Shown here: in pieces, positions 1,586 to 19,628 of the stretch | Numbering within the stretch: the first letter of the stretch is position 1 | How the letters are laid out: each line of letters opens with the position of its first letter | NCBI RefSeq assembly: GCF_900156745.1 | Contig: NZ_LT707065.1 | Location: 1,798,001 to 1,862,000 of the forward strand | From: Achromobacter sp. MFA1 R4 | GTDB taxonomy: Bacteria > Pseudomonadota > Gammaproteobacteria > Burkholderiales > Burkholderiaceae_B | Length of the DNA: 64,000 bases | Direction: 5' to 3' | Notes under the pieces: model-generated | Told to the model about the DNA's origin: nothing | The model's input: the letters and a program-made list of their open reading frames with translations, nothing else | The model's database searches: none | Translations under genes and position numbers: made by a program

Positions 1586-4500
1586 TTGTCTGCCAGCGCG
1601 CCCCAACGCATCGTCAAGATCCGCCGCGACTACAACACCTGGGTCGCCAATGAAACGCTGGAAGACTATGCGCTGCGTTTCACGCCCGTGTCGTTTCGCA
1701 AATGGTCGGAGTTCCGCGTCGCCAATACCGCCCTGGGCGCCGTCTCCTTTCTGGCGCTGGAAGCCATCGGCGGCGCGCTGGCGCTGAACTACGGCTTCAT
1801 CAATGCGTTCTGGGCCATCGTTGCCGTGGCCCTGGTCACCTTCCTGACCGGCCTGCCGATCGCCTATTACGCGGCGCGCCATGGCCTGGACATGGATCTG
1901 CTGACGCGAGGCGCCGGCTTTGGCTATATCGGCTCGACCATCACGTCGCTGATCTACGCCTCCTTCACCTTCATCTTTTTTGCGCTGGAAGCGGCCATCA
2001 TGGCGCTGGCCATCGAACTGGCCACCGGCTTGCCGCTGTCCATCGGCTATCTCCTGTGCGCCGTGGTCATCCTGCCCATGGTGGCCTATGGCATCACCTT
2101 CATCAGCCGGCTGCAGTCATGGACGCAGCCGATATGGCTGCTGCTGCTGCTCTTGCCCTATGCCTTCATCGCCTTTCGCGATCCCGGGGCGTTGCAGGCG
2201 TTCCTGCAGTTTCCGGGCTATGACGGCCGGGGCGGCAGTTTCAATCTGCTGATGTTCGGCTCAGCGGTGGCGGTCGCCGCCTCGCTGGTGACGCAGATCG
2301 GCGAACAGGTCGACTTCCTGCGCTTTCTGCCGGAACGCACGGCGGCCAACCGCCGACGCTGGTGGCTCGCGCTGATCTGCGCGGGTCCGGGCTGGATCCT
2401 GCCCGGCGCGGCCAAGATCCTGGGCGGCGCCTTTCTGGCCTGGCTGGCCCTGTCCCTGGGCGCGCCCGCTGACAAAGCGGGGGACCCCACCCACATGTAT
2501 CTGGCGGCCTACACCTATGTCGTCAGCGATCCCGGCCTGGCACTGGTGCTGGTGACGGCCTTTGTGGTGGTCTCGCAGGTCAAGATCAACGTGACCAATG
2601 CGTATGCCGGCTCGCTGGCCTGGTCCAACTTCTTTGCCCGCATCACGCACAGCCATCCGGGCCGGGTGGTATGGCTGGTGTTCAACGTGCTGATCGCCGT
2701 GGTCCTCATGGAGATGGGCGTGTTTGGCGCGCTGGAGCATGTGCTGGCGGTGTTCTCGCACGTGGCCCTGGCCTGGATCGGGGCGCTGGTGGCGGATCTG
2801 GTGATCAACAAGCCGCTGGGCCTGTCGCCGAAACGCATCGAGTTTCGCCGCGCCTATCTGTATGACATCAACCCGGTCGGCGTGGGCAGCATGCTGATCG
2901 CCATGACGCTGGGCCTGCTGGCCTTTGCCGGCGTGTTTCCCGGCACCGCGGGCGCGCTGGCGCAGGCCTTGTCGCCCTTCGTGGCCTTGCTGGCGGCCTT
3001 TGTCTGCGCACCCGTCATCGCCTGGCGCACGCGCGGGCGCTACAACCTGGCGCGCACGCCCGTCGATGTCGCCGGATCCGACCATGTCTGCGTGATCTGC
3101 GCCAACCGCTTCGAACAGCCCGACATGGCGCATTGCCCGGCCTATAACGGCGCCATCTGTTCCTTGTGCTGCACGCTGGATGCCCGCTGCCAGGATCGCT
3201 GCAAACAGCAGGGACGCCTGAAGGATCAGGTGCAGGCCGTGTTGGGCCGGCTGCTGCCGGCGCGGGTCACGCCGCTCTTGCATAGCCGCCTGGGCCACTA
3301 CCTCCTGATCGTGGCGGGCATGGGCGCGCTGCTGGCCGGCATTCTGGGCCTGATCTACTACCAGGAGGTCGCCAGCCACACGCGGGCCGGCCTGGACCCC
3401 TCGGGTCTGCGGCCGACCTTCCTGAAGCTGTACGCCGCCCTGTTGCTGATCGGCGGCGTGGCGGCGTGGTGGCTGGTCCTGGCCCATGAAAGCCGGCGCG
3501 TGGCGCAAGAGGAATCGGATCGCCAGACCCATTTGCTGCTGCGCGAAATCGAGGCGCACAAACAGACCGACGCGCAACTGCAGCAGGCCAAGGAAGCCGC
3601 CGAAAGCGCCAATCTGGCCAAGAGCCGCTTCATGGGCGGCATGAGCCACGAATTGCGCGCGCCCTTGAACAGCATTCTGGGCTACGCGCAGATCCTGCTG
3701 CGCGACCCGGGCCTGCCGCCGGCGCGGCGCGAGGCCATCGACGTGATTCATCGCAGCGGCAAGCACCTGATCGGCCTGATCGATGGCTTGCTGGACATCG
3801 CGCGCATCGAGGCGGGCAGGCTCAGGCTGGAGAACAGCGAACTGCGCCTGCCGGAGTTCCTGGAGCAGATCGTGCAGATGTTCCGGCCGCAGAGCACGCT
3901 CAAAGGGCTGACCTTCTGCTATGAAGCGGCGGAACTGCCGTCCATCGTGCATGTCGACGAAAAGCGGCTGCGGCAGATCCTGATCAACCTGTTGAGCAAT
4001 GCGCTGAAATTCACCACGGAGGGGCAGGTGTCGATGCGCGTGAAGTCCGCGGCGGACATGGTGCTGTTCGAAGTGGAGGATAGCGGCCGGGGCATACCGG
4101 CCGAGGACCTGGAACGCATCTTCCTGCCCTTTGAGCGCAGCTGGGCGGCGGTCGAGCAGGCCGATTCCGGCACGGGCCTGGGCCTGACCATCTGCCGCAT
4201 GCTGACCGGCATCATGGGCGGCGAATTGACGGTGCGCAGCGCCGTCGGCCGCGGCAGCGTGTTCACGCTCAAGCTGTTCCTGCCAGAGGTGCGCTCGCCG
4301 CGCAGCGATGCCCGGCCGTCGGGGCTGGTGGTGGGCTATCGCGGCGAGCGGCTGCGGATCCTGACGGTGGACGACCAGCCTTCGCAGCGGCGCCTGGTTC
4401 GCGACCTGCTGGAGCCGCTGGGCTTTGAGGTGCACGAGGCGCCGCATGGCGCCGCCTGCCTGGCCTGCGTGCATACGCTGCGGCCGGCCCTGATCTTGAT

Positions 4501-4978
4501 GGACGTCTCGATGCCGGATATGACCGGATGGGAAGTCCTGCGGCGCCTGCGCGATGCAGGCGTGGCCGTGCCCATTGTGATGCTGTCGGCCAACATCCTG
4601 GGGCTGGATCCGAAAGACCCGGCGCAACGCGGGCATGACGCATTCATTGCCAAGCCGGTGCTGTATGAGGATCTGCTAAGTCATCTCGGCCGTCTGCTCA
4701 AGCTGGACTGGCAGGTGGCGCAGGTGGAACCGGCGCTGCCGGCGGGCGACCTGCATCGGGTGGCGCTGGAGCGCGAGGATGCCGAGGCGCTGCTGGAACT
4801 GGGGGCCATGGGCTACATCAAGGGCATCCAGGCCAAGCTGGAAGAAATACAGGGCCGCCGGGCCGAAGCGCGCGAACTGACGACGCATCTGCGGGCGCTG
4901 GCTGGCGAGTTTCAACTGAGCGAATTCAATCAGCTGCTTAAACATCATGTACAGCGTCACCATGCCCACGCCCGATAA
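1586..4978 (+). CDS. NCS1-permease/hybrid sensor histidine kinase
   Basis: A chimeric membrane sensor of about 1130 residues. The N-terminal ~470 residues are a multi-pass permease of the cytosine/purine (NCS1) type. Next comes a Cys-rich patch (starting CVIC, then CSLCC and CQDRC, about residues 500-545) that could bind metal. Two further membrane segments follow, then a HisKA domain with the phospho-accepting His in MSHELRAP (about 688), an ATPase domain, and a receiver with Asp in LILMDVSMPD (about 973). An open frame begins at TTG 1502, but TTG 1586 has a GGAG site six bases upstream and leaves both palindromic boxes outside the coding region, so it is preferred. It overlaps the next response regulator. 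Urea or another nitrogen compound as ligand is inferred from the urt neighbours. Confidence 0.85.
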   Translation: MSASAPQRIVKIRRDYNTWVANETLEDYALRFTPVSFRKWSEFRVANTALGAVSFLALEAIGGALALNYGFINAFWAIVAVALVTFLTGLPIAYYAARHGLDMDLLTRGAGFGYIGSTITSLIYASFTFIFFALEAAIMALAIELATGLPLSIGYLLCAVVILPMVAYGITFISRLQSWTQPIWLLLLLLPYAFIAFRDPGALQAFLQFPGYDGRGGSFNLLMFGSAVAVAASLVTQIGEQVDFLRFLPERTAANRRRWWLALICAGPGWILPGAAKILGGAFLAWLALSLGAPADKAGDPTHMYLAAYTYVVSDPGLALVLVTAFVVVSQVKINVTNAYAGSLAWSNFFARITHSHPGRVVWLVFNVLIAVVLMEMGVFGALEHVLAVFSHVALAWIGALVADLVINKPLGLSPKRIEFRRAYLYDINPVGVGSMLIAMTLGLLAFAGVFPGTAGALAQALSPFVALLAAFVCAPVIAWRTRGRYNLARTPVDVAGSDHVCVICANRFEQPDMAHCPAYNGAICSLCCTLDARCQDRCKQQGRLKDQVQAVLGRLLPARVTPLLHSRLGHYLLIVAGMGALLAGILGLIYYQEVASHTRAGLDPSGLRPTFLKLYAALLLIGGVAAWWLVLAHESRRVAQEESDRQTHLLLREIEAHKQTDAQLQQAKEAAESANLAKSRFMGGMSHELRAPLNSILGYAQILLRDPGLPPARREAIDVIHRSGKHLIGLIDGLLDIARIEAGRLRLENSELRLPEFLEQIVQMFRPQSTLKGLTFCYEAAELPSIVHVDEKRLRQILINLLSNALKFTTEGQVSMRVKSAADMVLFEVEDSGRGIPAEDLERIFLPFERSWAAVEQADSGTGLGLTICRMLTGIMGGELTVRSAVGRGSVFTLKLFLPEVRSPRSDARPSGLVVGYRGERLRILTVDDQPSQRRLVRDLLEPLGFEVHEAPHGAACLACVHTLRPALILMDVSMPDMTGWEVLRRLRDAGVAVPIVMLSANILGLDPKDPAQRGHDAFIAKPVLYEDLLSHLGRLLKLDWQVAQVEPALPAGDLHRVALEREDAEALLELGAMGYIKGIQAKLEEIQGRRAEARELTTHLRALAGEFQLSEFNQLLKHHVQRHHAHAR

Positions 4979-5855
4979 AAACCTCGTCATGCTGGTCGAT
5001 GATGCGCCAGACAATCTGAAAATGCTCTCCACCGCATTGGATGCGGCGGGCTATCAGGTGCTGGTGGCAATCGATGGCCAGTCGGCGATAGAACGGGTGG
5101 ACTTCGTGGTGCCGGACATCGTGCTCCTCGATGCGGTCATGCCGGGCATGGACGGCTTCGAGACCTGCGCGCGCCTCAAAGCGCATCCGGCGGCGGCCGA
5201 TGTGCCGGTGGTGTTCATGACGGGCCTGACCGATCCCGAGCACGTGCTGAAAGGGTTTCAAGTGGGCGGCGTGGATTACGTGACCAAGCCGCTGGACCCG
5301 GATGTGGTGGTGGCCAGGCTGCGCACGCATTTGCGCAACGCGCGCAGCCTGTCGGCGGCCTTCGACGCGATCGATGCGGCGGCGCGCGCCGTGGTGGCGC
5401 TGGATGCGCGCGGGCTGCCGATCTGGAAGACAGGCAAGGCCCGGATCTGGCTGGCGGCGTATTTTGGCTGCGCCGAGGACGCGACGGAGCTGCCGGCGCC
5501 CTTGGCGGATTGGGTGGCGCGCAACCTGGCGGCCGGCCCTGCGGCCGAACCCTTGGTGATCGTCAGCGCGCGCGGCCGCCTGACCTTGAGCCTGTCGGCA
5601 TCACGGCGCAGCGGCGAGACGTTGCTGCTGTTGCAGGAGACCGCGCCGCTGGCGCCGGCCTACGGCCTGACGCCACGCGAAGCCGATGTGCTGCGCTGGT
5701 TGGCCAAGGGAAAGACCAATCGGGACATCGCCGAGATCCTGGGCATGGCGCCACGCACGGTGAACAAGCACCTGGAACACATCTACGTCAAACTGGGCGT
5801 GGAAACCCGCGCGGCGGCGGCGGCACTGGCGGTGCGGCAGGGGGAGAGCTTTTGA
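4947..5855 (+). CDS. LuxR-family response regulator
   Basis: A 302-residue two-component regulator that overlaps the kinase gene by 32 bases and is surely its partner. The N-terminal receiver has the acidic pair in LVDDAPD and phospho-Asp in IVLLDAVMPGMDGFE, with the conserved Lys in YVTKPLDPD. A spacer of about 100 residues leads to a C-terminal helix-turn-helix (TPREADVLRWLAKGKTNRDI) of the NarL/LuxR class. A second in-frame ATG at 4962 (MPTPDKN) may be the true start; neither has a clear ribosome site. Likely targets are its own operon and the divergent urt genes, through the TACGT boxes. Confidence 0.88.
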   Translation: MYSVTMPTPDKNLVMLVDDAPDNLKMLSTALDAAGYQVLVAIDGQSAIERVDFVVPDIVLLDAVMPGMDGFETCARLKAHPAAADVPVVFMTGLTDPEHVLKGFQVGGVDYVTKPLDPDVVVARLRTHLRNARSLSAAFDAIDAAARAVVALDARGLPIWKTGKARIWLAAYFGCAEDATELPAPLADWVARNLAAGPAAEPLVIVSARGRLTLSLSASRRSGETLLLLQETAPLAPAYGLTPREADVLRWLAKGKTNRDIAEILGMAPRTVNKHLEHIYVKLGVETRAAAAALAVRQGESF

Positions 5856-5877
5856 CGGGGAAAGCCAAGGCTGCACG

Positions 5878-6208
5878 CCCCGGTAACTCACACCACGTGC
5901 GACACCCGCCTGGCGGGATCGCCCTTTAGCAACTCCGCCAACCGGGTCAACCCCTGCGTCAGCCGATCTCGATCCATGGCGCCCCCCAATGACACACGCA
6001 GCGCCAAGGGGCTGAAGGACCCCGCGGAAAATGACGCCGAGTCCGTGACGCTCAGTCCTTGTTGCAGCGCCGTCTGGGTAAGCCGGTAGAAGTCGATATG
6101 ACGCGGCAACTGCAGCCAGAGGTGCAGCCCATTCGGGTCGGCCTGAATGTTGCCCGGAAGGATCGACGCCGCAATAGCTTGTCGATGCCGCAGCTCACTT
6201 TTGACCTG
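5878..6208. repeat. Left 331-bp direct repeat bounding the island
   Basis: This stretch matches 19298-19628 in the same orientation with no gaps and about 14 mismatches by eye (roughly 96% identity). Both copies hold the last ~107 codons of a MocR-type gene plus about ten bases beyond its stop. Identity ends abruptly at 6208/19628 on one side and 5878/19298 on the other, so these are the edges of an insertion. Confidence 0.93.
5888..6208 (-). pseudogene. Displaced 3' fragment of a MocR-type regulator gene
   Basis: This encodes the C-terminal part of the aminotransferase-like domain (from QVKSELRHRQ to ARRVSHVV) and is nearly identical to the end of the intact regulator at 19308-20717. No start codon, DNA-binding domain or PLP-lysine region is present. 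Sequence upstream of the junction at 6208 belongs to mcrC in another frame, so the longer open frame here is an artefact of fusion. Three residue differences from the intact copy are visible: N for D, A for T and P for L. It is a scar of island insertion and is not expected to be functional. Confidence 0.9.
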
Positions 6209-7499
6209 GGCGCCCCACAACCAAGGAACAAACAGAGGCCAAGCGAGCCTTAATATCGTCGTCTCGCGACACGTCGATAGAGAAGAGCTCCAAACGATCC
6301 CGGCTGGATTTGATTGCATAGTCGGCGATCAAGCCCTCGTCGCTCCCGGACTGCGCATGATGCGGATAGAGCAGGGTCAACTTGTCGCATTGGTAGACGC
6401 GACTATAGGCCATCATCTGATACACATCCGTCTGCGACACCCCCCGCTTCGGATCGTCTATCCCCGGGACGATTCGCTTCCACTTGGTATCGATCACCTG
6501 CAACACGGCATCGCCACGCTTAATCAAAATGTCTGGCCGCGTCTGAAAGAGCTGTTGTCTATCTGCAGTCTCAAGACAATAAAGCCGGCCGCCTTGGGTG
6601 ACGACATGCAGATCGGTATCGATCAACGCTCGCCTAAGAGTGCGCGCGACATACTCTTCAAACAAGGCACTCATCTCAAACAACAGCGAGAAACCGTCGA
6701 TGCCGCCTGCCGATGTGGTTTGGAAGCGCTCACCCAATAGCAGGCGTGCGAGATTAAGCAACTCGCGCCAGCGTGCGTTGGTGCGATCCAAAACCACATC
6801 GTTCCATCGCAGCGCGGAGCGTGGCACGGCGGCAATGTCCGCATAGGCGAATGCGAGTTCACTCAACCGCCGCTGATTGTCAGTCGTGCGTGCGCTACGC
6901 GAGAGCCGCGTGACCGCCGCCTTCATGATGCGGTTGAGTGCGATATCGTGAGTCAGCGCGTCATAGCTACAAGCCAGCCGAGACGGCTCGATAGCAAGCG
7001 CCGTAAACTGGCGCTTCACGTCCAGCCGTCCACGCAATGCAGGCAGATCGTCGGCCCGTTCGACGTAGCGACGCGGCATGCCCTGACGCAGGGCATCAGC
7101 CAGCTTCTCCGAGAACAGGCGAATCAGGATCTCGAGCATCGTCTCACGTTGCCAGTCAAGCGCCGTGACTTGCCCTGCATCAATTTTTAGATTGAGCGCG
7201 ACGCCTAGCATATGGACAAGCCGACGGCGGATGCTTCCGGTAGCCCGATCCCCATCCTCGCCAGGAATATCAATCTTGGGCAGGATTTCCAGCACGCTGC
7301 CTGGAGCGGCGATCACTCCGACGACGCCACGCGCGTGAAGCGCTTTGCGGCCGTGCTCAAGGATTCCACCGCCCTCTCTACCGGCCAACGGCGATGCCGC
7401 CGCGACCGCAGCGATCCGGTCTGCGGCGTGCGCCGGGATCTCGTCCGCCGCGTCGCCGTAGCGAATCGTCTCCCACTCCAGTATCGTACGGTGGATCAC
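6195..7499 (-). CDS. mcrC: McrC, nuclease subunit of McrBC-type restriction system
   Basis: A 434-residue partner of McrB that cleaves DNA carrying modified cytosines once McrB translocates. The C-terminal half carries a PD-(D/E)xK nuclease core: RPDILIKRGDAVLQVIDTKW at about residues 320-340, with Asp of RPD and D-x-K of IDTKWK as metal ligands. The N-terminal part fits the McrC family (PGSVLEILPKI, near residue 70). The start overlaps mcrB by four bases, so the two are translationally coupled. The last four codons and stop lie inside the left direct repeat, read in a different frame from the MocR sequence, so the natural C-terminus may have been replaced at the insertion junction. Confidence 0.9.
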   Translation of the reverse strand: MIHRTILEWETIRYGDAADEIPAHAADRIAAVAAASPLAGREGGGILEHGRKALHARGVVGVIAAPGSVLEILPKIDIPGEDGDRATGSIRRRLVHMLGVALNLKIDAGQVTALDWQRETMLEILIRLFSEKLADALRQGMPRRYVERADDLPALRGRLDVKRQFTALAIEPSRLACSYDALTHDIALNRIMKAAVTRLSRSARTTDNQRRLSELAFAYADIAAVPRSALRWNDVVLDRTNARWRELLNLARLLLGERFQTTSAGGIDGFSLLFEMSALFEEYVARTLRRALIDTDLHVVTQGGRLYCLETADRQQLFQTRPDILIKRGDAVLQVIDTKWKRIVPGIDDPKRGVSQTDVYQMMAYSRVYQCDKLTLLYPHHAQSGSDEGLIADYAIKSSRDRLELFSIDVSRDDDIKARLASVCSLVVGRPGQK

Positions 7500-10231
7500 T
7501 GCGAGGTGAAACCGTTATAGGAAAAAGTGTCGCGTACGCTCCAACGATAGCGAGGGGCTGAATCCTCGCCATTGCCCAACCCCTTGGGAGCTTTCAGTCG
7601 CCGACGCTCAATAAAGCTGCCCTTATGTTCGCCGTCTCGATCATCGCCATCACCCAGCACAGCGGCTACCTTTCCCCAATCTTCGTAGAAATACTCAGCC
7701 AGCAACGGGATCACCTTATGCCGCATGACCTCGTCTATGTCGCGCCGTGTTTCGCAGCGAATGAAATAAGCGTGGCCGATCTGATGTTCACGGTCGAATA
7801 GATACTCGATCCGCTCATTAATTGTGGCGAGAAGCGCGGCGAGATCGATGCCGCTTACCGTCCCAAGCAGCGAAACATCCGGCATCAACTCCCGGAACTC
7901 GAACCTGCGCCGGAGCGCAGTGTCGAGCAATGCAATCGACCGGTCTGCGGTGTTCATGGTGCCGATGAAGTGAAGATTGGCCGGGACGCCGAAGCGCGCG
8001 TTGCTATAAGGCAAGGTAAGCCGCATGCCCTCGTCCATGCCGACGCGCTTGTCGGGCTCGATCAGGGTGATAAGCTCGCCGAACACCCTGGAGATATTGG
8101 CGCGGTTGATCTCGTCGATGATGAGGACGTGCTCCTCGGCGCTGGCCTCGGCTGCCTCTGCCATCTGCCGTAGTACGCCAGGTTGCGCCTTCAGGGTAAA
8201 GCCTACGCCATCGGTGAGCGGGTGCGGTCGTAAACCCTCCACGAAATCCTCGTACGCGTAGTTCTGATGGAAGGTGACGAAGCCAATCTGACCTTGGCCC
8301 TTCAACTCCTCATAGGCCTGCCGCAACTCCTGACGCCGTGCGGCATCATGCAACAGCGGATCACTGTCCGGAAGCCCTCGGCACAGCCGTACCGCCTCGG
8401 CCATGGTGCGGTATGTCTTGCCCGTGCCAGGGGGCCCATACAGGATAAGGTTCTGCGGCGAGCGCTTCACCGGATCCAGCGGAGGTGGTTCGTCTGAGGG
8501 AAGCCCACCCCAGTTAGCCAAGTTCTGTAGGAACCAGGCATGATCCTGATTTTCGCCATGGAATGCAAAGCGGATCAGGCGCTGCGCCATCTGGTTGGTG
8601 TTATGAACTTCCCAGATCGTGGGCTGATATGTGTAGTGATACCACTCTCGAGGGACAAGAACGGGCTCCCAGTCAACCGACACCCGCTCACCGTCCCCTT
8701 CATTTGCCCTGACTGTGCCGACCGCTTTAATGGACATAACGGATACCGAGCGGCCGCGGTTGTCGAACGGCAGGCCGTTCTTGCGAACGTATGTTGCCTT
8801 GATCGCGATGGGATCGCCGGGCTGCATCCGCAGCACCTGCTCTCGGTGCCGATCGCTGGGGCTATCGATTTCCCAGATCCCCTCGGCGATGAAGCGATCG
8901 AACTGATCGTTAGTCCGGCCGTAAGATGCGCCAACGAACCAATAAGGACCGTCATGTAGGATTCCGGTCGTAGGTTCCTCGACAAATCGTGCCTCTTCCT
9001 CATGCTCCCGCTTGTCATCCAGCGCCGCCCAGACGAAGCCCTGCACGTCAAATAGATCGACGGGATTCCACCCGAGTTCACCATCGAACAAGGCGAACAG
9101 CGCGCGCACGATCTGCAGGAATTCATCAACATCGGAGGGTGTGAAATCGTTGTGGTCAAACAATTTCCGGCCGAACAGGCGCTTCCCCATCGCCTCGATA
9201 CGGCTGATATCGAACCAGCACGCGGCTTCTGGATGCACGGTTCCGACGATGCTGACCGCTATCGCCAGAACTTCCGCCCGATGAAGTCCGGGGAGGCCGC
9301 CGTCCTTCAACTGCTCGAGAGTTTTCGCACCCTCTGTGATAGTGGCAAGTGGATCGTCTTCATTCCGTGCAATCTGGGCAATCGCTTCATAAAAGCGATC
9401 CCGTGGTTCCGACTGGGCCATTTCGACCTCGTTCAGAACTCGCTGCGACAAAGGCAGACCTTCGCCATCGACACAGAGCGCACGATAGATCTGCTCGCCA
9501 GCGCTGCGGTCATCCGCAGGCGATGCGGTAATTGCCTGGACTTGCTGAATCGCACGGTCTTTTGGACGACGCTCGTTGGCCCAATAGTCACCGTTCTGCT
9601 GACGAAAATCTTTAAACCCCGACATACGCGAAAGGAAGGTTTCGCGCAGTTCCTTGAAGGCTTTCCAGTCAATGACCACGAAGCCGAGAGCATCCAGCGC
9701 AGTTTTGCACTGGCCGCCTCCCGGTAGCTCTTCGCTGCCGATATGGCCCAACGCATCACGCACAATCGCCTTGCTCGGATAGCGCTTTCCCCGATGCAAC
9801 AGCCAAAACTTCATTGGATTTCCCAGACCCTCGTGGCTAGCGATGAAGTCCGTGACCGACTTCGCCGCATCGCACCGATCGATCGCCTGAAGGATGTCTT
9901 GCGGCGTCAGGCCGAACGTGCCGACACCGCGAGGGAGGGCCTCTGTATCGAGAAAGCGCCGGTAGAAATTAAGCGTCGCCCGGAAATGCGCAAGGCCATC
10001 ATATAGATTGCCGTCAATCTCAAAACGCGACGGGTTTGGCCGACCAGCCCGCTCATCCGCTTTCGAGTACTGCATCGTTTCTCGAATTGCCGCCAGCGTT
10101 AAACCGTCTGGCAAGTTATCGAGATCGCCATATGCCCTTTCGATGCGCCGCACGTCCGTCATTTGCGTGTTAACCGTCGTCTTCGAATAGCCCTCGGCTT
10201 GCATCCACGCTTTGAATTCGTTCTCTTTCAT
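7496..10231 (-). CDS. mcrB: McrB, AAA+ GTPase with EVE-like DNA-reading domain
   Basis: A motor subunit of about 911 residues. A SAM-like helical region at the N-terminus is followed by a long middle part. Then comes a PUA/EVE-like module (PYWFVGASYGRT to WEVHN, about residues 427-543) of the type that reads modified bases. The AAA+ domain has Walker A GPPGTGKT (about 600), Walker B LIIDEINRANISRVFGELI (about 700) and the McrB signature GTMNTADRSIALLDTALRRR (about 755). The frame is open back to TTG 10285, but ATG 10231 has an AAGGA site close upstream and is preferred. It pairs with mcrC (four-base overlap). It is much longer than E. coli McrB because of the extended N-terminal half. Confidence 0.88.
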   Translation of the reverse strand: MKENEFKAWMQAEGYSKTTVNTQMTDVRRIERAYGDLDNLPDGLTLAAIRETMQYSKADERAGRPNPSRFEIDGNLYDGLAHFRATLNFYRRFLDTEALPRGVGTFGLTPQDILQAIDRCDAAKSVTDFIASHEGLGNPMKFWLLHRGKRYPSKAIVRDALGHIGSEELPGGGQCKTALDALGFVVIDWKAFKELRETFLSRMSGFKDFRQQNGDYWANERRPKDRAIQQVQAITASPADDRSAGEQIYRALCVDGEGLPLSQRVLNEVEMAQSEPRDRFYEAIAQIARNEDDPLATITEGAKTLEQLKDGGLPGLHRAEVLAIAVSIVGTVHPEAACWFDISRIEAMGKRLFGRKLFDHNDFTPSDVDEFLQIVRALFALFDGELGWNPVDLFDVQGFVWAALDDKREHEEEARFVEEPTTGILHDGPYWFVGASYGRTNDQFDRFIAEGIWEIDSPSDRHREQVLRMQPGDPIAIKATYVRKNGLPFDNRGRSVSVMSIKAVGTVRANEGDGERVSVDWEPVLVPREWYHYTYQPTIWEVHNTNQMAQRLIRFAFHGENQDHAWFLQNLANWGGLPSDEPPPLDPVKRSPQNLILYGPPGTGKTYRTMAEAVRLCRGLPDSDPLLHDAARRQELRQAYEELKGQGQIGFVTFHQNYAYEDFVEGLRPHPLTDGVGFTLKAQPGVLRQMAEAAEASAEEHVLIIDEINRANISRVFGELITLIEPDKRVGMDEGMRLTLPYSNARFGVPANLHFIGTMNTADRSIALLDTALRRRFEFRELMPDVSLLGTVSGIDLAALLATINERIEYLFDREHQIGHAYFIRCETRRDIDEVMRHKVIPLLAEYFYEDWGKVAAVLGDGDDRDGEHKGSFIERRRLKAPKGLGNGEDSAPRYRWSVRDTFSYNGFTSQ

Positions 10232-10285
10232 GTATTCCTTGAGTCGCCTGCTTTCTGGGGAAGCTTTTTTCACGTATACATTCAA

Positions 10286-10737
10286 ACCGCCGAAAGCCGC
10301 GATATCTTAGCGCGTTAGCGGAACTATCGGAGATCGCACAGTGCCACTTGAGATATTCGATGTAACCGCATTGTTGGCATTCAAGCGGATGGAAACGAAA
10401 GAGTTCAGTGACTTAATACCGTGTATAAGTTTTGGAAAATCGAGCAGCATATAAATCAGGCCAGCTCGCGGTTTGGCGATAATGTTTGAGGACGCTTATC
10501 AACTCCTGGTCCGACCCGCATGCGATAAATATGGGTGCGCCATTAAACAAACTGGCTGCTACGTCTGCCCGACAACCACCGCAACCAGAGCAGTGGTCTG
10601 CGCTTCCTGTATCTGCGCAATGCTCGAGGCTTCGGCAGACGCCTGCCTCCAACGATGAATACCGGGAAGTGCTCAACGCACGCCTCACCAGCAATGGTGT
10701 CGAGCGTCAGGTCCCATCCGGTTCGCGCCGAGGGCGC
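10286..10737. other. Intergenic stretch without a convincing gene
   Basis: About 450 bases between mcrB and the NERD-helicase gene. A 37-codon plus-strand frame (see separate entry) starts here. An open minus-strand frame at 10413-10694 has no ribosome site and no recognisable composition. Loss of a gene, or a boundary between two defence modules, is the simplest reading. Confidence 0.4.
10341..10454 (+). other. Short plus-strand frame, possible gene remnant
   Basis: A GTG-started frame of 37 residues (begins VPLEIFDVTALLAFKRMETK), with GGAG about nine bases upstream. It is the only plus-strand candidate inside the island and diverges from mcrB. It ends at TAA after a normal-looking start, so it could be the surviving head of a lost gene or a spurious frame. 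Not recognised. Confidence 0.2.
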
Positions 10738-12369
10738 TCAAAGCCGATCAAGCAACTGCGCCGCAGCTCGCTCAGACATAACCAGCACCAGCTTCATCGC
10801 GGCACGCGTCGCGCCGACGAACAGGCGCCTTACCTCCTCGTCGCCCAGCGTTTCAAAATCGATCTCTGCCACCACTACCGCGGGCGCAGACTGTCCCTTG
10901 AACCGGTGCACGGTGTCCGCCATGATTTCGCCCTGTGAATAACCCGGCCGACCTTCTGCGTCGTAAGTGCCCTGGAACTTTCTTAAAACGTAGGGGCCCA
11001 ACTGATCATACGAAAGTACGCGGGAGCTAGCCCTGCCCCGATAGGTGAGCAACGCAATGTCCGTGGCGGCAAATCCCTCGGACAGACACGCTTGCACGCC
11101 CTCCTTCACCTTCCCGATCAAGTCCGCGGTGCTCTCATACACAAGGAACTCCACGTCATGCCCCGCGACGGGGGACGCAGAAACCACGCTTATCTCGTCC
11201 GGCACTATTGCCTGAAGCAACTGGACGACCGAACGCGGACTTCGGAAATTCCTGTCCGCACGCAGGCGGGTCCATCCGGGAAGCGTTACGGTCGTATGGC
11301 GATAGAGCTTCTGCATCGGGTCTTCAAGCCAGATGATGCGGGCGTCTTCCCGGGCATGCCGGCGTATCAAGTCGAACCATTCAGCCTTGATATCCTGCCC
11401 TTCGTCCACGATGACTGTATCGAAAAGCAGCTCCGGCGGGACTGGTAGATCAGCGCACGCCTGGACGAGCTGGTCAAAGGCCGTTGCCGAATTGAAGTTC
11501 GGCACCGCGCCAGACTGCCGCAGCATCCGTTCGCACAGCATGTGAAACGTGCATGCCATCCCCCCCGATGGCGCGATCATGGCGATGTGATCGGCCAGCG
11601 GCCGGTTGAAGCAGAGATAGAGGGGCCTGAGGCCGGATTCGATCGTCCCGCGATACTCAGCCAATGCCAACTGCGTCTTCCCGGAACCCGCCGTCCCCGT
11701 CACATGCAGACGAAACGGCGTCATGTCGAGCTGTCGCGCCCAATAGGCCAAGCCGCTGGAAACACGCGTGACAAGGGCCTTCGCCTGACCGGCCAAGACG
11801 CTGGCATCGGTTTCCAGCTGAATCACATCACAAAGAAACCGGTCCACTTTCACAAACAGCGGACCCGCGTCGCCCGCAGGCAGAATCTCCTGGATCACGG
11901 AACACAATGCATCGCGGCGACGCGCATCCACGATACGCTCCGGTATCACCCCCGCAGTTTGGGGCGAGTTGCAGACATAGTCCGGGCAAAAAAGCAGGTG
12001 CTCGATCCTGACATACTCGCCATCGAGGGTGCGCGTCAGCTTGTGGCGCATGCTGTTCACGGTGCGCGCCATCTGCACCGGCACCGACTTCAACCTGCCG
12101 CTGTAGTTCTTGGCCAACCCGTTGGGCGTTTCCTCGAGCTCGCCGCATTTCTGCTCGATCAGCATCATGTGGCCTGCGCGGTTAACCACAACGAAATCGA
12201 CTTCGCCGTGGATCGCGTGCGCACCGTCGATATTCGTCCAATGCACGGCGTGATAGACCGTGTAATCGTCCGCCAACCCTTGCGCCAGGACCGCGAGTGT
12301 CTCAACTTCCCGGCGCATAGCGCCGATGGCGCCCATGTCTTGCCAACCGTCCGGCACGATACGCGCCAT
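10738..12369 (-). CDS. NERD nuclease / UvrD-like superfamily 1 helicase fusion
   Basis: A 543-residue protein. The N-terminal ~120 residues resemble a NERD (nuclease-related) domain: GEVDFVVVNRAGHMMLIEQK supplies the D and E-x-K expected of a PD-(D/E)xK fold. The rest is an SF1 helicase: Walker A GTAGSGKTQLA (about 225), Walker B VDEGQDI (about 320), ADRNFRSP, and the motif V/VI region TVHRFKGQSAPAVVV (about 485) and FVGATRA. Such fusions process DNA ends and are frequent in defence islands. It shares direction with the zinc-ribbon, small membrane and WYL genes upstream. The precise system is not recognised. Confidence 0.85.
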   Translation of the reverse strand: MARIVPDGWQDMGAIGAMRREVETLAVLAQGLADDYTVYHAVHWTNIDGAHAIHGEVDFVVVNRAGHMMLIEQKCGELEETPNGLAKNYSGRLKSVPVQMARTVNSMRHKLTRTLDGEYVRIEHLLFCPDYVCNSPQTAGVIPERIVDARRRDALCSVIQEILPAGDAGPLFVKVDRFLCDVIQLETDASVLAGQAKALVTRVSSGLAYWARQLDMTPFRLHVTGTAGSGKTQLALAEYRGTIESGLRPLYLCFNRPLADHIAMIAPSGGMACTFHMLCERMLRQSGAVPNFNSATAFDQLVQACADLPVPPELLFDTVIVDEGQDIKAEWFDLIRRHAREDARIIWLEDPMQKLYRHTTVTLPGWTRLRADRNFRSPRSVVQLLQAIVPDEISVVSASPVAGHDVEFLVYESTADLIGKVKEGVQACLSEGFAATDIALLTYRGRASSRVLSYDQLGPYVLRKFQGTYDAEGRPGYSQGEIMADTVHRFKGQSAPAVVVAEIDFETLGDEEVRRLFVGATRAAMKLVLVMSERAAAQLLDRL

Positions 12370-13046: not shown

Positions 13047-14081
13047 TTATGGCTTTTCCGCGTACATGGCCGCAAGCGCGCGCGCTTCTGCCGCCATCTC
13101 GTCGCGCAGTTCCGCCGGCCCCAGCACCTCGACGTTGGGCCCGAACGCCCGCAGCCACCAGCGCAAGCGCTTGCTGAGGAGGACGGTGCCCCTTATATTC
13201 AGGCCCGTTCCCGCAGGCCACGCCACCTGGTCGTCCGATAGCGGCGATTCGAGCAGATGGTTGCCAGCACCATTAAGAAAATGCAGTTCGACAGGAATGG
13301 GGCCTTCGACCATGAAGTCGAACTGCCGTTGTTCCTTCACAAAATCGGCAAGGCTGAATTCGGGGGGATAGGAGAACACCTCGGGCAGCATGTTTGCGCT
13401 GACGAGCCTGTCCAGCCGGTAAACGGCGGGCTTTTCATAAGCAGCCATTGCGGCAACGAGATAGACTAGGCCGCCAACTTCCACCAGGCCCAAGGGATTC
13501 AGAATCCTCGCAGTTTCCTGATTCGCCCTCGAACGGACGCGATACACGACATCCAGCTTCTGCTCGTAGAACAGGGCTCGGGTAACGACGGAGAACAAAG
13601 TGGAATCGATGGACGGATGTTGCAGAGCAAATCCGCCGCTTTCCACTTCAACCTTGTCGACCCATTTACGATATCGGCGCTCGCTGTCATTGTGCGAGAC
13701 GCCCAGGCGCTTTTCGGCGGTGTCGAACAATGAAGACAGCGACTCCGCAACCAGCGAGGGAATCTGCCGCGACGAAAACCGCTTCAAGGTCTGGAGCGCG
13801 AGCGCCTGCTCGTGCGTCATGAGGCTGGCCGACCTGGCGGCCACGCCACCTGCGCCGGCCCGTTTGCGCCAGACGAGTGCCGTGCCCCGCTTCTCTGATT
13901 CCACCAACTGCTCGTCCTGCAGCCTCTGCAGCGTGCGCTGTACTGTCTTCACGACTGGGGGATGGGGTAGGGACTGGCACAGCTCCCGGTGCACTTCGGG
14001 GGTGCTCATGAAGCGACCGCCTTTCTCGGCGTCCTTCAAAACATGAAAAATTTTGGCGACCAGCGGGGGCATATTGAACAT
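13047..14081 (-). CDS. WYL-domain transcriptional regulator
   Basis: A 344-residue regulator. An N-terminal winged helix (VVKTVQRTLQRLQDEQLV, about residues 45-60) is followed by a linker and a WYL domain (LNPLGLVEVGGLVYLVAAMA, where the family has W-Y-L-x-A). A C-terminal extension (WLRAFGPNVEVLGP) is typical. Proteins with this layout (BrxR/CapW type) repress or induce adjacent anti-phage genes in response to a nucleotide or DNA ligand. The preferred start is ATG 14081, one codon inside the open frame. It is same-strand in the middle of the island and is the likely switch for the genes downstream, perhaps also for the Leo genes upstream. Confidence 0.82.
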   Translation of the reverse strand: MFNMPPLVAKIFHVLKDAEKGGRFMSTPEVHRELCQSLPHPPVVKTVQRTLQRLQDEQLVESEKRGTALVWRKRAGAGGVAARSASLMTHEQALALQTLKRFSSRQIPSLVAESLSSLFDTAEKRLGVSHNDSERRYRKWVDKVEVESGGFALQHPSIDSTLFSVVTRALFYEQKLDVVYRVRSRANQETARILNPLGLVEVGGLVYLVAAMAAYEKPAVYRLDRLVSANMLPEVFSYPPEFSLADFVKEQRQFDFMVEGPIPVELHFLNGAGNHLLESPLSDDQVAWPAGTGLNIRGTVLLSKRLRWWLRAFGPNVEVLGPAELRDEMAAEARALAAMYAEKP

Positions 14082-14152
14082 CACTCGCTTCGTTTACGCG
14101 TTAACGGCATGAATTTGGGATGCCTAAATGGACAAAACCGATCGAGCGCCGG

Positions 14153-14674: not shown

Positions 14675-16408
14675 TCACTCCGCCATCGCAACTCGCGCAG
14701 GCTGAGGCATCAGCCCATTCAACTTAGTTTTAACGCTCTGGAGCTTGGCTTGGCTCGTGTTGATGAAAGTCGAGCGCTCTTCCACGGATTCAATGATCTT
14801 CTCGAACGCTTTAAGCTGCGGGGCAAAGAAGTCAAGCAGCTTCTCGTCGTCGCCGATGATGTCGTAGATGTCTTTGAAGGCGCTCTTGATCAGCTCACCG
14901 ATTGACTCCTTGGCGCTCTTCAATTCCTGTTCCAGCTCGTGAGCCTTGTATGCGCTCAGGAGGTCCGACGTAAGAGTGAAGGCTGCGCCTGCAGGTCCTG
15001 CCCATTTGGAAATGGCTCCGGCGATCTTGGTCGCCTGCCAGGGCTTGAACTTGATCGCTACACCCGTCACCGCGCTGAGCGCATCGCGAGCGGCAAATAC
15101 CGCACCTTTGATGATGTCGGGGTTCAGGTTGGCTATCCCCTTGGCGGCCCCGCTCATCGATTTCAGTGCTGTTCCGCCCAAAGCATCGAGAAAGCTCTCG
15201 CTAGAGTTCAGCTGGCGACCGATATCCTGGGAGATGCGACTGGTGACTTTGGATGACTGATCGAATGACCGATCGATCGCGGTCTTAATCCTGAGGTTCA
15301 GCTTGAAACCTACTCCCTCCTCAGCGTATCCGAGCTCGTCCTCAAGGAATTCACGTATGTTCTCCAGGGAAAGGGGACGCAGTTTTCCCAGCAAGCCCCT
15401 CTCAAGGTTTTGCAGTTCCTCGAACAGTTCACCGGCCAATCGTTTGACTTCGCGGCGGCCTTTTGCAATGTCCTGGCCGATGCGTGCGGATTCCTCGGCA
15501 TTCTGCGCGGCAAACGCTTCGAGTTGCTCCAGTTGCTCCTCCGCGCATAAAACATGTTGGCCAACGACGTCGCGCACTACATCCAGGCCAGTCTTGGCAA
15601 TCAACACTGCGGGCACGTTGTGTCGAAGCACCCGAGCTGTCGCGACCTTCAGATCGTTGATCCGTGAACGGCTTTCATACTGTTCTGGCCTGCCGAACCA
15701 AAACTCCAGGCCGCGACCATTCGGGTTGGAGGCCACGCAAACGATATTCAATTGGGACACTTCCTCCGCGTCGAGATTTGCCGTGCGTTGCAGCTTGGCC
15801 TTGAGGTTGTCCTTCTTGATTGTTGCCTGGGCATCAAACAGCACTTGTTCGGAAAGATCCGTTACCTCGTCCATTTTGTTGATCACAAAAACGGTAGAGG
15901 AGAGCTTGTTCAGGTCTCGAAGGACCCACTTGACAATGTCGGCGTGACTTTCCTTGAGAGGATTTGTGGCATCCACCACATACAGAATCAGATGTGCTTC
16001 GGAAATATAGCGTTTGGTCAAGTCTTCATACATCACCTGCGCGCCGTCGACTTCTTTCTCCTTATCACCGAACAGACCGGGAGTGTCGACGATCTCGCAC
16101 TTCTCGGGCAACCCCTCAGGGGAATAGATTGCCAAGCGATCTGAGGACTCATCCATGTCGATGTTCATGTCCGACATGACCTTGCCAAGCCAAGCCGCGA
16201 TGACGCTGGTTTTGCCGTCGGAGAATGCGCCCAGCAAGGCTATGCGCAAAACGTCGGATTCGACCGCCTGCACTGCCGAATCGATCTTTTGCAGCCCGAC
16301 GCCGACGTCCGCGCCCATCTCACCCAGTTCATTGAGTACTGCACGCAGTTGCTCCAGCCGCTGCAGGGCCGTTTGCTTGTCAACATTAAACTGCTTGAAT
16401 GGTTCCAT
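14675..16408 (-). CDS. leoA: LeoA-like bacterial dynamin GTPase
   Basis: A 577-residue large GTPase. Complete G motifs are visible: G1 GAFSDGKT (60-67), G3 DTPG (108-111) and G4 NKMD (177-180). Helical stalk regions and an Ala/Gly-rich amphipathic patch (about residues 440-520) follow and could contact membrane. The layout and the two partner genes match the LeoABC dynamins of enterotoxigenic E. coli and the Eleos defence system. The start ATG overlaps the preceding dynamin-like gene by 23 bases, so translation is coupled. It probably assembles on membranes with its partners during phage attack; that role is inferred from the Eleos family. Confidence 0.82.
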   Translation of the reverse strand: MEPFKQFNVDKQTALQRLEQLRAVLNELGEMGADVGVGLQKIDSAVQAVESDVLRIALLGAFSDGKTSVIAAWLGKVMSDMNIDMDESSDRLAIYSPEGLPEKCEIVDTPGLFGDKEKEVDGAQVMYEDLTKRYISEAHLILYVVDATNPLKESHADIVKWVLRDLNKLSSTVFVINKMDEVTDLSEQVLFDAQATIKKDNLKAKLQRTANLDAEEVSQLNIVCVASNPNGRGLEFWFGRPEQYESRSRINDLKVATARVLRHNVPAVLIAKTGLDVVRDVVGQHVLCAEEQLEQLEAFAAQNAEESARIGQDIAKGRREVKRLAGELFEELQNLERGLLGKLRPLSLENIREFLEDELGYAEEGVGFKLNLRIKTAIDRSFDQSSKVTSRISQDIGRQLNSSESFLDALGGTALKSMSGAAKGIANLNPDIIKGAVFAARDALSAVTGVAIKFKPWQATKIAGAISKWAGPAGAAFTLTSDLLSAYKAHELEQELKSAKESIGELIKSAFKDIYDIIGDDEKLLDFFAPQLKAFEKIIESVEERSTFINTSQAKLQSVKTKLNGLMPQPARVAMAE

Positions 16409-18119
16409 AAGGCATCTTCTCCAACTGTTCTTTGGTACGGTCCATTTGCGCCATCTGCTGTTTGATGATCGTCAAGGGGCGCTCGAGTGATTCGTTGAGT
16501 TGCTGCACGCGAGAGAGGACGGCTTCGTCAATCTGGTTCCGCACAGGGACGAACAGCGTCTTTAGCTCCTCCTGCAGCGCTTTACGGGTTTCGGCCCAGG
16601 CGTCGTCAATCTTCTCCTGCACTTGTCCTTGTGCCTTCCGAATGCGCTTTTCTTTGCCGGTAAGAAAACTCAGCACGTTGACCAGAACGCCCACTAAAAC
16701 GCCTACAGCAGCGCCAATCAGGTTGCCGATCACGGGAAACGCTGAACCAATACCGGCCCCCGCTAAGGCGTAGGATCCGATGTTGAAAGCCATCCAACCA
16801 TAGTCTCCGAGTTCTAGGCCCAAGCCCAATTCCGGAGTCTTGTAACGAATGCTCGGGATTTCCGCATCGCGAAGCAGTTGTTCGAACTCGACGCGCGCAA
16901 CGTCCTCCAACAGCCGTCGCATTGCCTGCTGCAGATCCTGATGCAGATCGGCGAGGTACGTTTCAAACTGCGCCTGCAAATCGTCTTTGACCGACTCGTG
17001 GCGGGTCCTGAACGCGCTATTGATCTCGCGGGCTATCGTGTCGTTATCGCCGAAGAATCTCTCGACAATCTCGTCGGCATCTTCCTTAAGGCTGTTGAAG
17101 AACTTGTCCCAAAGGTTTTTCCGCCCGGCAACAATCAGTCGCTCGAAACGTTCTCGAGCCTCTTTGATCGCTTCGTGGCACTTCTCGAATTCCGGCTTGG
17201 TCCTCGCGACAAACGCTTCGTGCGTTGTGTGCAGCGCTTGCAACGTTTCAAGATTCTCCGACAGCAGTTCGCGCACCTTGGTCTTGTTGCTCTCGATCAT
17301 GTCCTCACGAAAGGTCGAAAGCTTTTCGTGCAGCACATTGGCGACAGACTTGATTTGGCTGAAGTCGTACATCGCCTTTTGTGAGGCGAAGTGCTTCTGG
17401 TAATTGCGCTGTTGGATGACCAGATCTCTATCACGGGATGGATCAATCGTGGTGCGCCCGGTTTGCGGATCGCATGCGAGGGCTGAGAACGCTAGCAATC
17501 CCTGCACGCAATGACCGGGTTGCATGACCTTGCTGCCCAATACCGCGTGCAGTACTTCCTCTGTCTGCTGCAAGGCGTTGGTAACGCCGCCGTGGCCCGT
17601 CAGCGTCTCGCGGTCTTCCTCGAACTCGTAGGCATCGGCATTGCCACGCACGTTGATCAAGGGACAGACGCGTGTGCCCAGGCGAAGGTAGCCGCGGATT
17701 TTCTGCGCGGTCGCCTTTTCCGGCTTTTTATTGGTGCCATTCACATAGAAGACCAAGTGCGCCTTGGCCACCGCTTCGCGGACCATGTGAGCGTACTTGC
17801 TTTCGTCGCCCTCGATACCAGGCACATCGATCAGCTGAAAGCGTTTACCTTTGTAGTTCAGGGGATAGAGCGTATTTCCCTTGGTGAAGTCGGCTTCGCC
17901 AGTACCGATGATCAGGCCATCTACCCGGTGTACTTGACTCTTCTTGCGTTCATAGGCAAGCAGCTTCTCGAGCAGTATTGTGAGTTGGCGATTGAGCAAT
18001 GCCTCGAGTGCGGGGGATCGCGTATCAATGCGCTGGAGGGCTGGCGCACAAATGGAAGCAACCGTTGAGGACGTCGAGGTGGTCGCACCGAACAGCTCAT
18101 CAAATTCGAAGCGGTCCAA
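16386..18119 (-). CDS. Dynamin-like protein lacking a P-loop (LeoB-like half)
   Basis: A 577-residue protein with the later half of a GTPase domain only. G2-like TKGNT and G3 DVPGIEGDE (98-106) are present, but no GxxxxGKS motif exists in the first 97 residues and the G4 position (INVRGNAD) is degenerate. Long coiled-coil segments fill residues 260-430. A strongly hydrophobic Gly-rich region (about 440-487) looks like a membrane hairpin. The start is TTG, one base after the stop of the upstream gene, with AGGAGG overlapping that gene's last codons. The missing P-loop is found in that upstream protein, so the two probably form one split GTPase. Confidence 0.78.
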   Translation of the reverse strand: MDRFEFDELFGATTSTSSTVASICAPALQRIDTRSPALEALLNRQLTILLEKLLAYERKKSQVHRVDGLIIGTGEADFTKGNTLYPLNYKGKRFQLIDVPGIEGDESKYAHMVREAVAKAHLVFYVNGTNKKPEKATAQKIRGYLRLGTRVCPLINVRGNADAYEFEEDRETLTGHGGVTNALQQTEEVLHAVLGSKVMQPGHCVQGLLAFSALACDPQTGRTTIDPSRDRDLVIQQRNYQKHFASQKAMYDFSQIKSVANVLHEKLSTFREDMIESNKTKVRELLSENLETLQALHTTHEAFVARTKPEFEKCHEAIKEARERFERLIVAGRKNLWDKFFNSLKEDADEIVERFFGDNDTIAREINSAFRTRHESVKDDLQAQFETYLADLHQDLQQAMRRLLEDVARVEFEQLLRDAEIPSIRYKTPELGLGLELGDYGWMAFNIGSYALAGAGIGSAFPVIGNLIGAAVGVLVGVLVNVLSFLTGKEKRIRKAQGQVQEKIDDAWAETRKALQEELKTLFVPVRNQIDEAVLSRVQQLNESLERPLTIIKQQMAQMDRTKEQLEKMPYGTIQAV

Positions 18120-18120
18120 T

Positions 18121-18816
18121 TCAGCCTCCTACCAAATTCAGCAGAACCGCTCCCGCCGTGGCGCCGATTAGGATCCCACCGGCGCCGACTAGAAACAGAC
18201 GCACCCTGCCACGAGATACCGCGTGCGCTTGCACGATTTGCAGGCGTTTCGAGGCTTCATTCTGCTCCGCGTCAAGACGCGCACGAGCTTCATCATCGGC
18301 AAGCCTGACCCTGGCATCAGCTTCAGCCTGAGCGATTGCATTTCGCTCCTGGGCTTCGCGCTGAACTATTTGTGCCAATCGGTTGGCGCTTTGACTGATG
18401 GTGGCCAGTTCATTCGTGTATTCGCTGTACAGGGCGTGCAAGCCTTCGCGAACGCAATCGAGGTGGGCAGTTAAGGCTTGCGAGAACTGTTCCAGATCAT
18501 CGGCGTGCTGCTGCAGGAGTGCTTGGCGAGATTCCTCCTTGAACAGGATGCGTAGAGAGTCGATGATTGTGCTCTTGCCCGCGTTGGTCTCGCCGAAAAA
18601 CGCCAGCGTGAACGTGTCCCACTCAGCATGCGCTTTCAACTGGTGCAGCTCGCTATCGAAGCGGGCCTGGATTTCACGAAGCTTGTGGATAATATTGCCA
18701 ATTTCGCGCTTGCCGTCTTTATGTTCGACATTAAGCGAGAGAATGTCTGCAGTGGCACTGCCGATACTGTCTGATACGTGGACATACAGCCGGTTGAAGT
18801 CTTCCGGAGCGTTCAT
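18121..18816 (-). CDS. P-loop half of a split dynamin-like GTPase (LeoC-like), membrane-anchored
   Basis: A 231-residue protein. An N-terminal helical region leads to a canonical P-loop, FFGETNAGKSTII (75-83 core), but no G2, G3 or G4 motif follows. Instead there is a long charged coiled coil (about 95-200) and one C-terminal membrane helix (about 208-229) rich in Gly and Ala. The next gene begins one base after its stop and supplies DVPG, so the pair together make up a complete G domain. It heads the island's minus-strand gene series on the right. The counterpart in Eleos systems is a single LeoBC protein. Confidence 0.75.
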   Translation of the reverse strand: MNAPEDFNRLYVHVSDSIGSATADILSLNVEHKDGKREIGNIIHKLREIQARFDSELHQLKAHAEWDTFTLAFFGETNAGKSTIIDSLRILFKEESRQALLQQHADDLEQFSQALTAHLDCVREGLHALYSEYTNELATISQSANRLAQIVQREAQERNAIAQAEADARVRLADDEARARLDAEQNEASKRLQIVQAHAVSRGRVRLFLVGAGGILIGATAGAVLLNLVGG

Positions 18817-19297: not shown

Positions 19298-19628
19298 CCC
19301 CGGTAACTCACACCACGTGCGACACCCGCCTGGCAAGATCGCCCTTGAGCAACTCCGCCAACCGGGTCAGCCCCTGCGTCAGCCGATCTCGATCCATGGC
19401 GCCCCCCAATGACACACGCAGCGCCAAGGGGCTGAACGACCCCGTGGAAAACGACGCCGAGTCCGTGACGCTCAACCCTTGTTGCAGCGCCGTCTGGGTA
19501 AGCCGGTAGAAGTCGATATGACGCGGCAACTGCAGCCAGAGGTGCAGCCCATTCGGGTCAGCCTGCATATCGCCCGGAAGGATCGACGCCGCAATGGCTT
19601 GTCGATGCCGCAGCTCACTTTTGACCTG
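19298..19628. repeat. Right 331-bp direct repeat bounding the island
   Basis: Counterpart of 5878-6208, offset by 13,420 bases, with about 14 mismatches by eye. Here the sequence is the intact 3' end of the MocR gene, so this copy is continuous with a full-length gene while the left copy is a fragment. Confidence 0.93.

Follow-up and report, generated by a model that had tools for sequence, protein, structure and literature searches.

How can one nucleotide-binding domain be made from two genes, with the P-loop on one protein and the remaining motifs on the next? This question is raised by a three-gene locus in a stretch of 64,000 nucleotides from Achromobacter sp. MFA1 R4 (contig NZ_LT707065.1, positions 1,798,001 to 1,862,000), referred to here as the window. 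The genes lie on the minus strand in the order leoC-leoB-leoA, and each open reading frame (ORF) matches its own PADLOC model with E-values (LeoC 3.5e-77, LeoB 4.6e-221, LeoA 3.3e-274) that exclude chance matches. Our sequence data indicate that the locus is a split-type Eleos (LeoABC) system, of the LeoC plus LeoB type and not of the single-chain LeoBC type. A preliminary description of the locus had taken Eleos systems to encode a single LeoBC protein, which was mistaken since PADLOC holds separate LeoB, LeoC and LeoBC models. We consider it very probable that split-type LeoC and LeoB assemble into one dynamin-like LeoBC, with the chain cut in a helical arm outside the core and with LeoA as its partner.

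The split arrangement itself was already published in 2014. In the portions of Michie et al. (PMC4159319) used here, leoC and leoB of enterotoxigenic Escherichia coli (ETEC) are described as the two parts of a divided dynamin-like gene, confirmed by re-sequencing, and the split is said to be conserved in other bacteria. The same portions assign the P-loop and switch 1 to LeoC and switch 2 to LeoB, offer speculation only on the reason for the split, and report that LeoB and LeoC gave too little protein whether made alone, jointly or as a chimera. The ETEC H10407 locus resembles the window in its leoC-leoB-leoA order, the P-loop in LeoC, the DxxG in LeoB and the hydrophobic LeoC C-terminus. It differs in that switch 1 is placed in LeoC (PMC4159319), whereas the G2 Thr of the window lies in LeoB, and those portions of the paper describe neither the G1-G2 insert of single chains nor a re-fused form. 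What is added here are refinements, namely the arm as the cut site, a probable re-fusion and the position of G2.

A probable single G domain over two chains

We compared the window with 17 LeoB relatives, 1 from viral contigs, 2 from E. coli genomes and 14 from genome contigs. A separate LeoC lies directly upstream in 16 of them, at spacings from a 16-nt overlap to an 11-nt gap for the chosen starts, and the remaining relative (L024) is a single chain. We found the P-loop in all 17 split LeoC proteins (the window and 16 relatives) and no DxPG in LeoC of any of these pairs, the window included. GxxxxGK[ST] is likewise absent from LeoB in all 17 pairs, the LeoB of L021 being represented by its first 152 codons only. 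The division of motifs given in the preliminary description, with GETNAGKST confined to LeoC and TKGNT and DVPGIEG confined to LeoB, was correct, and the pattern it had named as contrary to its proposal, a complete G-motif set in each chain, occurs in none of the 17 pairs.

Single-chain relatives carry the same parts in the same order. Our comparison covered nine: L024, L011 (Chryseobacterium), L012 (Raoultella), L028 (Enterococcus) and L039-L043 (viral contigs). All nine match PADLOC LeoBC (1.8e-92 to 2.4e-175), and the LeoC model lies in front of the LeoB model in every one (LeoC 3.2e-49 to 4.2e-14; LeoB 1.3e-163 to 1e-41), L024 giving the best matches to both. In L026, L025 and L013 (Pseudomonas botevensis), the LeoBC profile is matched by LeoC at 15-98, 12-98 and 24-111, respectively, and by LeoB at 101-579, 100-598 and 99-582; window LeoC matches it at 5.2e-19. 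Since the LeoBC family search also matched 14 of 14 control genomes, only its strong rows were used. LeoA follows all nine single chains (annotated near L011, L012 and L028; with GAFSDGKT after L024; found by PADLOC in five of five after L039-L043), that of L012 being non-adjacent.

The motifs of the eight distant single chains are, in order, GET[NG]AGKS, [IV]G[DT]G..D[FY]T and D[VL]PGIEG. The insert between G1 and G2 spans 102-215 residues in eight of the nine single chains and approximately 10 in L041; correspondingly, the P-loop is separated from D[VL]PG by 155-268 residues in the eight and by 61 in L041, the counterpart being 254 for window LeoC and LeoB summed and 48 for window LeoA. In L041 the G2 motif (DYT) precedes the G3 Asp by 19 residues, the same spacing as for T79 in window LeoB, and G2 is therefore placed in LeoB. 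Sequence comparison thus indicates that a long G1-G2 insert is usual in single chains and that the leoC/leoB cut falls inside it. The preliminary description had noted a long insertion separating P-loop and switch I; it is present but not peculiar to the split form, since single chains have it. Two of the viral chains (L042:2276-5521 and L043:2456-5485; 1081 and 1009 aa) also have an alpha/beta-hydrolase-like part (DUF726, DUF900) N-terminal to the G domain, a possible enzyme fusion.

The single chain L024 is 726 aa long (697 from a likely inner ATG), contains GETNAGKST, DVPG and NVRG, keeps the LeoB-type paddle and has no strong hydrophobic segment in its insert. Its structure was modeled with beta1 at 69-75, alpha1 at 78-91, helices at 94-151 and 161-194, and strands including 224-232 before and into DVPG. 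The strands of a single G domain are present in the model, a pair of long helices being inserted between alpha1 and beta2, and the model resembles bacterial dynamins and mitofusin 1 in structure comparison. Alignment A7 (trimmed rows) was the one folded; A5 and A6, in which the LeoC and LeoB ends were misaligned, were discarded. In a sequence search of solved structures the L024 chain returned nothing below E 0.047, and the best match of the LeoB profile was BDLP (E 0.0038). Window LeoB scores under the Pfam cut-offs (DLP_helical 21.2 against 25.5; Dynamin_N 21.3 against 27), and L024 exceeds that of Dynamin_N (31.4 against 27). A match to heterotrimeric G-alpha shows only a G domain because Arl1, EF-Tu and RF3 have Z values equal to that of G-alpha, which has no trunk; the likeness of the insert is one of position, not of kinship. 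The order in all nine single chains, the LeoBC profile and the L024 model together support the proposal, made in the preliminary description, of one G domain divided between two chains with arm and anchor between G1 and G2.

LeoC modeled alone forms a single helix from 94 to 230; beta1 is not seen, and the predicted local distance difference test score is <50 at 66-92. The arms of close relatives (L008, L013, L014 and L021; alignment A8 columns 160-240) differ in repeat-like EADAR / EQ runs, which suggests that arm length changes quickly. The membrane helix that had been claimed to end the 231-residue protein is a hydrophobic segment that stops 5 residues from the LeoC C-terminus. In a scan begun at residue 91, all 17 split LeoC proteins have a hydrophobic C-terminal stretch of 19 residues (mean 1.78-2.69), with 2-4 Lys/Arg before it and 0-1 after. 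In 16 of them the stretch stops 2-8 residues short of the C-terminus, and in L025 it stops 19 residues short. The positive-inside rule is used for reading membrane topology. Given this rule and the Lys/Arg before the segment, LeoC is predicted to be tail-anchored with its G1 part in the cytosol.

The junction claimed earlier (TGA, one base, then TTG, with an overlapping AGGAGG) agrees in coordinates, lengths and letters: LeoC ends on the minus strand with GTA GGA GGC TGA, and the TTG start of LeoB follows after 1 base. An identical 1-nt gap occurs in 8 of the 16 split relatives, all with ATG at the position of the window's TTG, which makes the TTG start credible.

Age and history of the split

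The tree of 25 LeoB-type sequences (IQ-TREE, midpoint root; long branches for L011, L041 and L028) places the 16 split sequences and L024 in one group (100/100). L024 is nested inside this group, with L026 (95/91) and L025 (97/92), and is therefore best read as re-fused. Split and single labels require two changes on the tree, a single change being obtained in none of 200 bootstrap trees. Most simply, these sequences can be read as one split and a later re-fusion in L024 in which the membrane segment was lost; a history of repeated independent splits would cost more steps. Since L024 is a metagenome-assembled contig, there is a residual chance that its single-chain form reflects an assembly fault.

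Between the window and close relatives, the ratio of nonsynonymous to synonymous change (dN/dS) is 0.056-0.151 for LeoC (4 pairs), 0.087-0.117 for LeoB (3 of 4 pairs, the fourth being saturated) and 0.047-0.057 for LeoA (3 pairs), values that are rough given the high dS (0.9-2.5). Conservation of the split in relatives, which the preliminary description had named as a check, was found in 16 of 17. The shared split and the purifying selection together indicate that the split is old and that both genes are maintained. LeoC and LeoB distances are correlated (r = 0.953; n = 16; 0 of 2000 permutations as high), a result obtainable from shared ancestry alone.

LeoA with GAFSDGKT lies downstream in 15 of the 17 relatives, including L021, in which LeoB is interrupted; in L014 the contig end is reached before LeoA. 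In L026 (Acinetobacter; 3710-5656 and 5688-8321), the LeoB N-terminus is a GYF_2 domain (4.9e-10), and after LeoB lies an ORF of 246 aa in two inverted copies that looks transposase-like by eye. By its motifs (GAFSDGKT, DTPG and NKMD) and its further matches to NCBIfam NF041922 (6.3e-184) and Pfam DLP_helical (2.4e-94), window LeoA is a clear member of the dynamin superfamily.

Proposed assembly, nucleotide use and alternative explanations

We infer the assembly, translational coupling, topology, membrane action and GTP use outlined here, together with an anti-phage role. LeoC and then LeoB would be synthesized in turn from one message and assemble into LeoBC, LeoC supplying beta1, the P-loop and alpha1, and LeoB supplying switch I, DVPG, the remaining G domain, trunk and paddle. 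The chain break would lie within the helical arm between alpha1 and beta2 and, being outside the catalytic core, could leave the active site intact. Through its C-terminal anchor, LeoC would keep the composite G domain on the cytosolic side of the cytoplasmic membrane, the LeoB paddle would contact the membrane elsewhere, and LeoA would be the partner in a heterotypic pairing. By fractionation, LeoA is mostly periplasmic in the portions of Michie et al. 2014 (PMC4159319) used here, which does not fit easily with a cytosolic G1 part of a tail-anchored LeoC.

The G4 position bears on nucleotide use. The dynamin superfamily consensus at G4 is [NT]KxD. The 17 LeoB-type rows (the window, 15 split relatives and L024, with L021 excluded) have NVRG, or NIRG in L025, and all 17 are missing the Asp of NKxD; the eight distant single chains keep the Asn, and NKxD is not seen in them. 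We therefore name LeoBC dynamin-like, its GTP specificity being unproven. A working GTPase formed by LeoC and LeoB, as first proposed, is thus supported as to the shared G domain, but its GTPase activity is doubtful judging from G4. These substitutions also suit a reading in which the assembled LeoBC, as a pseudo-GTPase or with a nucleotide other than GTP, serves as scaffold or activator for LeoA, a possibility compatible with assembly of the two chains to which we give a modest chance, as the invariant P-loop, G2 Thr and DVPG suggest selection for nucleotide binding.

Other explanations concern the split itself. Single-chain LeoBC proteins exist, and a single gene could have been broken in this genome by a recent frameshift or stop; the preliminary description had left room for a very recent break. 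The tree speaks against this, as do the 16 of 17 relatives with the same split, their own start and their own hydrophobic segment, and the purifying selection on leoC and leoB, leaving it with next to no probability; conservation rules out a recent break. It is also very improbable that LeoC acts on its own as a P-loop ATPase of SMC/Rad50 or GajA type (P-loop and then coiled coil) and merely adjoins LeoB. LeoC does match GajA and AAA models weakly, its matches to AAA/ABC models falling below cut-off and the protein ending in a hydrophobic segment, but a LeoC-type part precedes a LeoB-type part in every single chain and LeoC matches the LeoBC profile. The single chains led us to reject an unrelated ATPase as the identity of LeoC. 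As a stronger form of the assembly proposed here, the split might double as a switch, in which membrane-bound LeoC waits and the site is completed when LeoB docks, for example upon membrane damage in infection. The predicted anchor, the failure of LeoC alone to fold a G domain in the model and retention of the split in 16 of 17 relatives agree with such a switch, yet we think it rather unlikely because the 1-nt junction points to the two proteins being made together and assembling at once, L024 is unsplit, and this analysis gave no sign of LeoC/LeoB dissociation.

Beyond the assembly of LeoC and LeoB into one LeoBC, we tentatively suggest that the G1-G2 arm is a membrane-sensing helical hairpin, at the place of the insert by which G-alpha controls its nucleotide site. 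In the split lineage the tip of the hairpin would have become the anchor and the cut, so that the GTPase halves would be kept together at the membrane and their site completed or opened by membrane state during phage attack. The eight distant single chains have no strong transmembrane segment in the insert. The hydrophobic 14-mer maximum lies at 0.51-0.56 of the insert in seven of the eight insert-bearing single chains and at 0.30 in L024. Since it exceeds 95% of shuffles in none of the eight (262 to 1817 of 2000 shuffles reach it), the membrane tip is only a lead.

To our knowledge, few natural proteins have a G domain that is parted into two chains at a point between P-loop and switch I. The domains of G-alpha can reassemble when they are produced separately. 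Single-chain LeoBC differs from the LeoC plus LeoB pair of the window in being one chain, with an insert of approximately 10 (L041) to 215 residues and without a strong transmembrane segment. Neither a split G domain nor a G1-G2 arm is mentioned in the portions of the sources used for the Cj-DLP1/Cj-DLP2 tethering pair (PDB 5owv; PMC6104087) and BDLP1 (2j69), and a literature search without bioRxiv showed no title on the arm, re-fusion or LeoBC structure among the matches listed. The question of 2014, why the gene is split, may now be testable, since the cut appears to lie in the G1-G2 helical arm, which varies among relatives, and natural forms with almost no insert, with an insert, split and (by the tree) re-fused are at hand. 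The L024 single chain, which has no LeoC anchor, may be easier to produce than LeoB and LeoC.

Feature coordinates, genomic island and surveys

Table 1. Features of the leoC-leoB-leoA locus, in window coordinates
Feature	Position	Strand	Basis or remark
leoC, 231 aa; N-terminal part (helices, beta1, P-loop, alpha1, arm, membrane anchor) of the putative composite dynamin-like protein	18121..18816	-	PADLOC
G1/P-loop GETNAGKST, LeoC 75-83	18568..18594	-	sequence; invariant in 15/15 aligned LeoC
Helical arm, LeoC ~94-206, length varies among relatives	18199..18537	-	LeoC model, alignment indels
C-terminal hydrophobic segment, predicted tail anchor, LeoC 208-226	18139..18195	-	mean Kyte-Doolittle 2.10; K/R before, none after
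AGGAGG, Shine-Dalgarno-like, over the final LeoC codons, 5 nt upstream of the LeoB TTG	18125..18130	-	sequence; putative function
leoB, 577 aa; remainder of the putative G domain, helical trunk and hydrophobic paddle	16386..18119	-	PADLOC
N-terminal LeoB segment ~36-64, proposed return strand of the arm	17928..18014	-	aligned with the end of the L024 insert; putative
G2/switch I TKGNT, LeoB 79-83	17871..17885	-	T79 invariant in 17/17 rows
G3 DVPGIEG, LeoB 98-104	17808..17828	-	invariant in 17/17 rows
G4 position NVRG, LeoB 156-159	17643..17654	-	Asn, Arg and Gly invariant; NKxD aspartate absent
Hydrophobic paddle, LeoB ~440-487	16659..16802	-	hydropathy maximum 2.41 at 468; name by analogy
leoA, 577 aa; dynamin-like partner, 23-nt overlap with leoB	14675..16408	-	PADLOC, NCBIfam, Pfam

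The locus is part of a 13.4-kb island flanked by direct repeats of 300 nt with 95% identity (5878-6177 and 19298-19597), which represent the 3' end of a MocR-type GntR/aminotransferase gene. The MocR gene is joined directly to the sequence beyond the island in three of seven same-genus loci (L052, L053 and L054), and such an island-free junction was not seen in the other four within their short flanks. In one genome of the genus (L055:1-987), the MocR gene has on its opposite side a piece 89% identical to window 7212-6226 (the McrC gene), which suggests that the site may be an insertion hotspot. The island also carries, at 6195-12369, McrC (PF10117, 1.2e-73), an AAA protein of 929 aa that is McrB-like by position, and a NERD/UvrD-like helicase. 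This defense-island setting supports an anti-phage role without showing it. A WYL-domain regulator (13047-14084), also within the island, adjoins LeoA, and since WYL-type genes also occur in loci L011, L015 (64% identical), L016, L017, L020, L026, L041 and L043, they may be recurrent regulators of Eleos-type systems.

Among 274 genomes of the class surveyed, 7 had a LeoC match with an E-value of 0.001 or lower, convincingly only its own genome (1.8e-75) and G056 (3.8e-29), the other five lying between 5e-5 and 1e-3. LeoB was matched in 1 of 398 genomes of the phylum and profile A3 in 1 of 399 genomes of the order, in both cases the window's own. No phage record matched LeoB at 1e-5. Nine plasmid records have a LeoB match, all at <60% identity, and four of them were examined (H1, H2, H3 and H8).
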